From: Pedobacter endophyticus
GTDB taxonomy: Bacteria; Bacteroidota; Bacteroidia; Sphingobacteriales; Sphingobacteriaceae
Direction of reading: 5' to 3'
NCBI RefSeq assembly: GCF_015679185.1
Contig: NZ_CP064939.1
Coordinates: 3,100,001-3,164,000, forward strand
DNA length: 64,000 nucleotides
Part shown: positions 50,166 to 53,156 of the stretch, in pieces
Layout: each line of letters starts with the position of its first letter
How positions within the stretch are numbered: the stretch's first letter is position 1
Notes under the pieces: model-generated
Seen by the model: only the letters and a program-made list of their open reading frames with translations
Databases searched by the model: none
Told to the model about the DNA's origin: nothing
Program-made: the position numbers and the translations under genes

Positions 50166-51176
50166 TTACTTTACATAATAAATTATGGCGTAAATAATTG
50201 CCGCGAGTGTAGCTGACACGGGAATGGTTAATATCCATGCCCAAATAAGGTTTATGGTTACGCCCCAACGTACCGCCGATACACTTTTCACAACACCCAC
50301 ACCCACAATTGATCCTGTAATGGTGTGCGTTGTAGATACCGGAATACCAAAATGTTCGGTAATACCGAGCGTTACTGCACCTGCACCTTCGGCTGCAACG
50401 CCTTCTAAAGCGGTGACCTTGGTAATTTTTGAGCCCATTGTTTTAACAATCTTCCAGCCGCCGCTCATGGTACCTAACGATATTGCAGAGTAACACGCGA
50501 TTGGAACCCAGGCTGGCATGGCTTCAAAATTGGGAATTACTTTTGATGCAATTAATGCTGTAGCAATGATTCCCATTACTTTCTGTGCATCGTTACCGCC
50601 ATGAAAGAAACTCAACGCGGCAGATGATAACAACTGCAGGCGTTTAAACCATTTCTCTGCCGTGGCCGGTTTTGCATAGCGGCAAATATTGATGATGATC
50701 AAAGTTAAAATAACCGATATTACCATACCAATTATCGGCGCTAAAACAATAAATGATACGATTTTTACCACGTAACCCATTTCAACTGCGGCCAGCGGAC
50801 TGGCGCCGATAAGTAAGGCATGCGTCATTCCCGCACCTGCGAAACCGCCAATTAATGTGTGAGAAGAACTTGAGGGAATACCGTACCACCAGGTTAACAG
50901 ATTCCAGATAATTGCTGCAACCAGGCCTGCAAGGATAACTTCTAATGTAATGTATTCTTCGATTACCGTTTTAGCAACCGTGTTGGCCACTTTATGATCG
51001 GTGAAGTAAAAATAAGCAGCGAAATTAAAAAGCGCCGCCCATAAAACTGCCTGAAAAGGCGTAAGGACTTTTGTAGAAACAACTGTTGCAATCGAGTTAG
51101 CGGCATCGTGAAAGCCGTTAATGTAATCGAAAGCAATAGCCAGAATTACAACAACAACCAGTAAGGTAGTTACCAT
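50166..51176 (-). CDS. PiT-family inorganic phosphate transporter
   Basis: This 336-residue permease carries both PiT repeats: DYINGFHDAANSIATVVSTKVLTPFQAVLWAA near the N-terminus and FFHGGNDAQKVMGIIATALIA in the middle, separated by about ten membrane segments. PiT proteins bring in metal-phosphate with protons or sodium. The gene is 12 bp after the DUF47 gene. The upstream Pho-box-like element suggests induction by phosphate shortage, which would be unusual for a constitutive low-affinity PiT. Confidence 0.95.
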   Translation of the reverse strand: MVTTLLVVVVILAIAFDYINGFHDAANSIATVVSTKVLTPFQAVLWAALFNFAAYFYFTDHKVANTVAKTVIEEYITLEVILAGLVAAIIWNLLTWWYGIPSSSSHTLIGGFAGAGMTHALLIGASPLAAVEMGYVVKIVSFIVLAPIIGMVISVILTLIIINICRYAKPATAEKWFKRLQLLSSAALSFFHGGNDAQKVMGIIATALIASKVIPNFEAMPAWVPIACYSAISLGTMSGGWKIVKTMGSKITKVTALEGVAAEGAGAVTLGITEHFGIPVSTTHTITGSIVGVGVVKSVSAVRWGVTINLIWAWILTIPVSATLAAIIYAIIYYVK

Positions 51177-51188
51177 GTTTGTGTTTTA

Positions 51189-51830
51189 TTAAGCGTTTTT
51201 AACCAAGATAGTTTCCAGCACATTCGCTACATCTTCGCACTTGTCTGTTGCCTTTTCTATCGTTTGTAAAACCTCTTTTTGTTTAATCAATTCAATAGCG
51301 TCAGTTTCATATTCAAACAAACGGGCAACAGCCAGTGTAAACACGTAATCGGCCTGGTTTTCGCCACTGTTAATGCGAATACAAGCATCGGCTATAACAC
51401 GTATGTTTTTGAAACTGCGTAGTTCTTTAATTGCTTTATCAATATCGGTACACATTTCGACTAATAGCTCGGCTATTTTTACAATAGGCTCGCTAATTTC
51501 GTTCATGTTGTACATTTGCATCCGATTGGCCGTACCGTAAATGTAATCGGCAACATCATCAACGGCGGTTGCCAACTGGTGGATGTCTTCTCTATCGAAA
51601 GGCGTAATAAAGTTCCGACTTAGCTCAAGGAAAATTGAATGGGTAATGTCGTCGCCAACGTGTTCCAAGCGCTCAATTTCCTTAAAAATGGCTTTTCTGC
51701 TTTCTGCATCGGCCGTGCTTACCATCTCTAAAAGCGCTTCAGCTATCTTTAAAGCGTTTATTCCAGCTTGCTCAAACAGAGGATGAAATTTTTTGTCTTG
51801 AGGGGTAAAGAACTTAAAAATATTGTTCAT
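51189..51830 (-). CDS. DUF47/PhoU-like phosphate-transport regulator
   Basis: The start is ATG 51830 (NNIFKFFTPQDKKFHPLFEQAG). The longer frame begins with TTG and would leave no room for the promoter. The 213-residue protein is all helical with the DUF47 pattern, including RLEHVGDDITHSIFLELSRNFITPFDREDIHQLATAVDDVADYIYGTA. DUF47 proteins are PhoU-like partners of PiT transporters. It is first in the operon with PiT. Confidence 0.94.
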   Translation of the reverse strand: MNNIFKFFTPQDKKFHPLFEQAGINALKIAEALLEMVSTADAESRKAIFKEIERLEHVGDDITHSIFLELSRNFITPFDREDIHQLATAVDDVADYIYGTANRMQMYNMNEISEPIVKIAELLVEMCTDIDKAIKELRSFKNIRVIADACIRINSGENQADYVFTLAVARLFEYETDAIELIKQKEVLQTIEKATDKCEDVANVLETILVKNA

Positions 51831-51848: not shown

Positions 51849-51882
51849 CAAAGCTACGAGCCCAATGTTAAGTTAATGTTAA
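51849..51882 (-). promoter_or_regulatory. Pho-box-like direct repeat and -7 element before DUF47-PiT
   Basis: On the minus strand two TTAACAT repeats (51882-51876 and 51871-51865) are separated by 4 bp, an 11-bp period. Eight bp later comes TAGCTTTG (51856-51849), an exact Bacteroidota -7 element, while no TTTG is present at -33. The repeat occupies that -33 place, as a Pho box does in other phyla. The leader would be about 15 nt. Confidence 0.65.
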
Positions 51883-52093
51883 TTTCTTAATTATATTAAG
51901 AAATTGCCTCGGTTTTACGCTGTTGTTACATCAGCCTCACCTGGTTGATAATGAATAAATAACGACAAAAAATAGCTGGGTCGGCTTAGGCTTGTTGGCA
52001 TTGGCCTCAGGCATAGAGCCCCCAAATTGAGGAAATGGCAATATTACCTTTCGATAGACATACAGGGTTGGTTTTATTTTAAACCGCAGCGCA

Positions 52094-53119
52094 TTATCCA
52101 ACTTTTTGGAGGGTGAAGGCAAAAGTGGTTCCGATTCCGGGTGTACTACGTACAGAAATAGTTTGCTGGTGCGCTTCGAGGATGTGTTTAACAATGGCCA
52201 GCCCGAGCCCTGTTCCGCCAACTTCTCTGGCCCTGTGGCTATCGATGCGGTAAAAGCGCTCAAATAACCGGGCAAGGTGTTTCTCTTCAATCCCAATTCC
52301 ATTGTCGGTTACCTCGATCAAGAACTGATCGTGAAGCTCGAAAATTTTTATCGCCGTTTCGCCATTTTCGATACCGTATTTTATGCTGTTCTCTAAAAGG
52401 TTGATCAGCACCTGACGGATTTTTTCGCGATCTGCATTTACTGTCGTTAGCGCGGTGTACTTATCCTTAAAAAACAGCTTCATTTGTTTTGCTTTGGCCC
52501 TGTCCTCGAGATTTTCCATAACCTCTTTAGCCAGCTGAACAAAATCGAACTTTTGGAAGTTTATTGGCGATTCTCCGGTTTCCAGCTTAGCAATAACATC
52601 CAGATCGTTAATGAGATAACTTAACCGTTCGACATTGTTCTCGGCCTTTTTCAGAAACTTAATGGCCATCTCCGGATCATCATCTATACACTCTTGCAGG
52701 GTTTCTATGTAGCCTTGAATGGCAAACAAAGGGGTTTTAAATTCGTGCGAAACATTGGAAAGAAATTCCCTCCTAAACTGCTCTTGTTTTTTTAACAGGT
52801 CTATCTCCTTTTTCTTGGCTCCGGCCCACTCCTTAACCTCTTGCTCAACATCGTTAATCGGGTCGTCGCTAACATATTCGCCGAGCGCATCTTTTAAATC
52901 TTTACCTAATTTAAGGTTGTGAATCAGTTTATAAATCAACTTGATTTTAGTGTAAATGTATTTTTCAAGCAGGTAATAGAACACCAAAAAACTACTCAAA
53001 AAAGATACGCCGAATGAAATGGCAAGATAATACCAGCTATGCTGAAAGTAGAAATTTACCATGCCGATAGACAGCGCAACGGCAAGGGCAGTAAATAAGA
53101 CCAACACACTTAATTTCAT
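52094..53119 (-). CDS. PhoR-like sensor histidine kinase
   Basis: The 341-residue protein has two membrane helices (1-20 and 31-51) with almost no sensor loop between, then a linker and the HisKA helix [19 protein letters not shown] with H125. The ATPase part has [33 protein letters not shown] and [15 protein letters not shown]. Small kinases of this shape are PhoR-type. No response regulator lies next to it in this window. The promoter carries the same Pho-box-like repeat as DUF47-PiT, and the location beside that operon supports a phosphate role. Confidence 0.88.
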
Positions 53120-53122
53120 GGT

Positions 53123-53156
53123 GCAATTTAGCTGTTTTATGTTAATTGATTGTTAA
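53123..53156 (-). promoter_or_regulatory. Pho-box-like repeat before the PhoR-like kinase
   Basis: TTAACAA (53156-53150) and TTAACAT (53145-53139), 4 bp apart, are followed after 8 bp by TAAATTGC (53130-53123). The arrangement equals that before DUF47-PiT. The -7-like element ends 3 nt before the ATG, so transcription would begin at or next to the start codon, giving a leaderless message. Confidence 0.55.

Follow-up and report, generated by a model that had tools for sequence, protein, structure and literature searches.

On the minus strand of the window (the whole 64-kb stretch of DNA analysed here), the gene for a DUF47 (PhoU_div) protein (51189..51830, ATG at 51830; PF01865, 80 bits) is the upstream neighbour of a gene for a PiT-family phosphate transporter (50166..51176; PF01384, 298.5 bits). 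The same strand encodes a PhoR/PnpS-like histidine kinase of 341 amino acids (52094..53119, ATG at 53119) with HisKA and HATPase_c domains; no PAS domain appears among its Pfam hits at E <= 0.001. The nearest named relatives of the DUF47 protein belong to Pedobacter, with identities of up to 97%. Among the NCBIfam models the kinase is matched best by PnpS (257.1 bits), with PhoR at 240 bits, both under their cut-offs; for the PhoR equivalogs it reaches 240 of the 334.2 bits demanded by TIGR02966 and 175.9 of the 500 bits demanded by NF053855.

Each of the two promoters of this module carries a direct repeat of the form TTAACAW-N4-TTAACAT. That of DUF47-PiT reads TTAACAT-TAAC-TTAACAT (TTAACATTAACTTAACAT, 51882-51865), with an 11-bp period, and is followed 8 bp later by the -7 element TAGCTTTG (51856-51849), which has the form TAnnTTTG. 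That of the kinase, TTAACAA-TCAA-TTAACAT (TTAACAATCAATTAACAT, 53156-53139), is likewise an exact match and stands 8 bp before the -7-like element TAAATTGC (53130-53123), which matches TAnnTTTG poorly and has 3 nt between its end and the ATG, so that the kinase mRNA may be leaderless or nearly so. The repeats, their 11-bp period and the 8-bp gap at both promoters are exactly as the initial annotation had described them, and inspection by eye bore out its further remark that neither promoter has a TTTG at the -33 distance, the repeats occupying that place. These are the only two exact occurrences of the pattern in the window, both on the minus strand, and 100 dinucleotide shuffles of the window yielded none; with up to three mismatches allowed, the window gives 52 matches and its shuffles 31 on average, and thus only the exact form of the repeat stands out. 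As a separate observation, TAAATTGC is kept shortly before the kinase ATG in at least three loci that lack the box (L228, L230 and L232).

The DUF47 box is strongly conserved in relatives. Within the genus it scores at least 13/14 in all 27 loci that hold DUF47, whereas the kinase box does so in 20 of the 29 loci measured (from a set of 30, with L221 omitted), scores 8-10 in the other nine, and is absent from all 18 non-Pedobacter Sphingobacteriaceae loci in which the kinase was found. A comparison of 80 named loci extends the DUF47 result, at the same threshold, to 36 of 39 Sphingobacteriaceae loci (Pedobacter 15/18; Mucilaginibacter, with one unclassified MAG, 11/11; Sphingobacterium/Olivibacter/Parapedobacter 10/10) and to 18 of 20 Flavobacterium loci. 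The box is mostly missing from Chitinophaga (1/8) and from other Chitinophagales and MAG loci (1/13), and the controls at 13 or more amounted to one N7 and one N6 in total. Since the loci share ancestry, these numbers cannot be taken as independent; the most diverse set is the class-wide one. In that set, boxes of at least 13/14 precede DUF47 in 13 of 27 loci and pstS in 10 of 30, against 0-1 for each control (N2, N3, N5, N6, N7 and the reversed motif). The motif is therefore enriched before the phosphate genes of relatives, the check that the initial annotation had proposed for itself, and at this score the two or more direct repeats of about 7 bp are specific to the 11-bp period. As to the composition of these sets, DUF47 was found in 52 of 119 genomes; 27 of 30 loci were measured, no ORF being called in L236, L241 and L245, and at least four of them (L235, L254, L257, L258) had the wrong ORF or operon head, L235 and L257 scoring 13 in another measurement. 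The pstS set comprises 30 loci out of 32 genomes over the cut-off, and 3 of the 12 exact sites at class level were read.

The distance from the box to the -7 element is also fixed, in a manner that depends on the lineage. In the genus, the DUF47 box is followed by N8-TANNTTTG in 27 of 27 loci, and all 36 Sphingobacteriaceae loci with a box have exactly 8 bp between it and a T[AT]NNTTT[GA] element, which ends in TTTG in 32 of them. In Flavobacterium the same distance is 18 bp (14 loci) or 19 bp (3 loci) in the 17 loci measured out of 18 with a box, the box lying further upstream than here, and the two layouts are about one helical turn apart. At DUF47 the box thus takes the place of the -33 element at a set distance from the -7 element, as a Pho box would be expected to do.

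We next consider the regulator that might recognise these repeats. The genome encodes seven OmpR-type (Trans_reg_C) regulators, and the one at G000:C1:240967, outside the window, tops the seven on both TIGR02154 and NF053854, while missing the PhoB equivalog cut-offs of each (226.9 of 296.2 bits and 219.9 of 270 bits, respectively). This candidate was chosen by similarity before its upstream DNA was inspected. That DNA contains TTAACAA-N4-TTAACTT-N4-TTAACTG, again with an 11-bp period, and the triple repeat recurs at 13/14 or better (the third repeat being counted at TTAA) in all 30 genus loci read, from 39 genomes with a match to the candidate; other spacings and the reversed motif reached that score in 0 of 30. 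The phoB repeats are the exception to the spacing rule, ending, as judged by eye, about 19 bp and not 8 bp before a TAnTTTCG-like element. The Pho regulon signal that the initial annotation had proposed for this lineage is thus supported at DUF47, pstS and the PhoB candidate (30/30), with the kinase box confined to part of the genus.

With respect to the classical partners of PhoB, no match to PhoU (PF01895) was found in the genome, the same search being positive in 13 of 14 control genomes, and the best match to PstS (TIGR02136) reached 40.8 of the 206.6 bits needed; of the Pst components, the search covered PstS. The combination of PhoU and PstS that would mark Pst-PhoU-type signalling was therefore not found in this genome. 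A motif search placed the kinase no more than 3.5 kb upstream of DUF47 in 30 of the 39 Sphingobacteriaceae loci, as against none of the 20 Flavobacterium or 8 Chitinophaga loci. This proximity, along with the failure to find PstS and PhoU, suggests a possible joint role of kinase, DUF47 and PiT in sensing.

Elsewhere in the single-contig genome (5.43 Mb) the motif is rare. There are five exact matches at four places, one of them a triple repeat, and no matches to the backwards pattern; three of the four places precede phosphate-related genes. The third place is the triple repeat, 8 bp from the -7-like TTACTTTG, behind which genes for SusC, SusD, a calcineurin-like phosphoesterase, GDPD, GlpT and a GDSL esterase follow on the same strand; with gaps of several hundred bp between them, this is an order of genes and does not imply a single transcript. 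The fourth place precedes a stretch without ORFs that is conserved in six loci and looks like a small-RNA gene. A profile of 34 positions was built from 33 sites (32 of 48 distinct sites plus the DUF47 site of the window), and its scan of the genome puts the DUF47, kinase and SusC boxes on top, all three of which were used to build it. Outside the training set, the best matches form a tandem pair of boxes spaced by 44 bp (4 x 11), each with E of about 0.1, which precedes a TonB receptor and a lipoprotein-like ORF, the latter without a Pfam hit. The 13/14 box of ppk1, TTAACATAAACTTAACAA, lies amid noise (E 1.7), and the fourth exact site also ranks low (E 1.6); an exact box precedes a ppk1-like ORF in a relative (L094, the likeness judged by eye). 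Before a SusC-SusD-Exo_endo_phos cluster there is a site that fits the 34-base pattern with two mismatches but gave no match in the profile scan at E <= 10. With three mismatches allowed, that pattern gives 9 matches against 4 for the reversed control, so that its weaker matches, the site of this cluster among them, are unsafe. Over all the genomes compared, the genes with boxes include DUF47-PiT, pstS (in relatives), ppk1, the GDPD-GlpT cluster and the phoB candidate, and so both phosphate genes and a putative phoB.

The exact pattern is not in itself specific, and we have rejected counts of it as proof when taken alone: of the 108 exact matches that were read, 16 fall within ORFs, and a count by eye over the seven genomes of the genus listed in full finds N3, the 10-bp spacing, as often as N4 (34 against 29). 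Two gene families without an assigned identity carry seven motif sites each. At the looser threshold of 12/14, the N7 control is reached in 11 of 27 DUF47 and 14 of 29 kinase loci of the genus and in 9 of 11 Mucilaginibacter loci, which makes 13/14 or more the score to use. The N3 places that were read (six in this genome and eight in relatives) represent mostly a few orthologous loci. One of them, L156, precedes an ORF that by eye resembles a glycerophosphodiesterase, so that some N3 sites may also be connected with phosphate. TTAACA repeats at the 10-bp spacing (TTAACAATTTTTAACAT, TTAACAAACTTTAACAT) occur in two intergenic elements that are conserved (L148, L156, L159, L161, L162 and L145, L158, L160, L163).

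Several known systems are close to the one proposed here. The Pho box of E. coli consists of repeats of about 7 bp (heptamer CTGTCAT) with an 11-bp period that replace the -35 element, and phoB is autoregulated. The present boxes share with it the repeat length, the period, the place at -35 and a box before the phoB candidate, and differ in their TTAACAW heptamer, in the TAnnTTTG -7 element and in their target, DUF47-PiT, in a genome without a detected PhoU or a convincing PstS. The PhoP box of B. subtilis, with TTAACA-type repeats at a period of about 11 bp, bears a resemblance to the repeats here, in a different phylum and with a different polymerase. Within the phylum of the present genome, the main text on PhoRB of B. 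fragilis describes PhoB as binding the pstC promoter in EMSA and as needed for pstC expression, and in that main text the terms "TTAACA", "consensus" and "direct repeat" are absent (PMC3547664). For F. johnsoniae, the main text of a study in which phosphate-starvation genes of Bacteroidota are already catalogued reports that SusCD-like phosphate-utilisation (Pus) clusters and phoB respond to Pi depletion, with large changes in a TonB receptor and a lipoprotein of the phoBR cluster; "motif", "promoter" and "Pho box" do not occur in that main text (PMC8115612). This receptor/lipoprotein pair is similar to the one behind our tandem boxes, by gene order and description and not by alignment. PhoB sites have been predicted bioinformatically before phosphate-starvation genes of marine plcP clusters, those of a flavobacterium included (PMC4796936); the text examined prints no motif. 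We found no printed Pho-box sequence for Bacteroidota in the literature examined, the portions seen of PMC4796936 included, which predicts boxes.

In view of these data, it is highly probable that both repeats of the window are Pho boxes, activator sites of the PhoB-type OmpR-family regulator at C1:240967, and a Pho box of the Bacteroidota appears well supported computationally. We infer that PhoB, phosphorylated when phosphate is short, would bind TTAACAW-N4-TTAACAT head-to-tail, with one monomer per 11-bp turn, and that the bound protein, replacing the -33 element, would activate transcription by recruiting RNA polymerase (of the sigma-ABfr type) to the TAnnTTTG 8 bp downstream. The output would be dependent on phosphate and should comprise increased phosphate import (DUF47-PiT), the adjacent kinase, which would pair with PhoB, and PhoB itself, together with the SusCD organophosphate-scavenging cluster, the TonB receptor/lipoprotein pair and probably ppk1.

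Direct repeats of about 11 bp are common to the OmpR regulator family as a whole, and another member, which by coincidence would govern genes for phosphate and the envelope, could bind these repeats in place of PhoB. The seven Trans_reg_C regulators in the genome, the position of the candidate under the PhoB cut-offs and the presence of some boxes before genes with no evident phosphate role would all be compatible with this. It nevertheless seems unlikely, for the box precedes the PhoB candidate itself in all 30 loci and pstS in other families, and the remaining six regulators score lower on both TIGR02154 and NF053854. More improbable still is a reading of the repeats as a strong, AT-rich part of the core promoter, or an upstream element, to which no dedicated regulator belongs: they are indeed AT-rich and lie within promoters at the -33 place, but at 13/14 or more no period except that of 11 bp shows enrichment at DUF47, pstS and phoB, and the 18-19 bp between box and -7 element in Flavobacterium leave no single fixed core-promoter place.

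A different doubt concerns the kinase box at 53139, which might do little, as a lineage-specific gain or a relic, and leave the DUF47-PiT box as the one that matters. Its patchy occurrence (20/29 in the genus and 0/18 in the other Sphingobacteriaceae) and its weak -7 element lend this idea some credit, but the 20 loci score 13-14/14 while the bases of their N4 spacers vary, as for a maintained site, and we hold a relic to be the lesser, if quite conceivable, possibility. If the Pho-box reading is true, Sphingobacteriaceae, Flavobacterium and at least some other Bacteroidota would use this repeat as the DNA signal of their phosphate regulon. It would permit prediction of the regulon from sequence, would reveal two promoter layouts and would raise the question of how phosphate sensing works in genomes where neither PhoU nor PstS was found.

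A multicopy, small-RNA-like family may be a further output of the regulon. It consists of GCATAAATATTTGGTTAGTATTTATA followed by a terminator-like hairpin (L172:1501-1640, G000:C1:4715911 on; L397-L426) and occurs in 27 of 40 genomes of the genus in 1-4 copies, the reversed pattern giving none. Eight bp before its -7 element there is a mostly degenerate TTAACA repeat, which scores at least 11/14 in 26 of 30 loci; among 12 neighbouring offsets, none attains 11 in more than 1 of 30. Because only 4 of the 30 boxes are exact, control of this family by PhoB is a guess. Judged by eye, 13 nt of the seed could pair with the glpT start in the cluster that bears the box, a match that is possibly due to chance, since its 9-base core occurs near 5 of 531 other ORFs. 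A search for CTAACCAA before susC starts, as an sRNA-target test, was left with the single susC-like ORF that passed the filters. Rfam gave no match to the small-RNA-like loci at or above the gathering score, FopS and GibS included, and the GibS promoter motif PM2 is described in the text seen of PMC7366714 as near-palindromic, as opposed to the direct repeat here. One could imagine a Sphingobacteriaceae Pho regulon without Pst and PhoU, in which the kinase senses phosphate via PiT-DUF47 (DUF47 taking the role of PhoU), PhoB works through the TTAACA box of TAnnTTTG promoters, and the outputs include this terminator-ended family, whose seed AUAUUUGGUUAG would retune outer-membrane and organophosphate uptake, for example at the glpT start; this is a speculative scheme, and we think it improbable in its entirety.

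The conserved ORF-less stretch behind the fourth exact box (L007:4113-4430, G000:C1:1870112 on; also L059, L063, L100, L115 and L126) has the box N10 from TATATTTG and, by eye, another promoter-like element as well as a GTGTA-TACAC palindrome; its terminator-like stem, also judged by eye, varies with its pairing kept. A near-identical box, followed after N8-9 by CATATTTG or CATCTTTG, is present at ten loci with differing neighbours (L045, L049, L051, L054, L086, L095, L106, L108, L110 and L132), in seven of which there is a membrane-like ORF of 69-74 aa, its likely ATG a few nt past the -7 element. Finally, in L006:3853-4439 an ORF sequence of the FDSAQDDNWF type is repeated between genes, and perhaps represents an intergenic repeat family.
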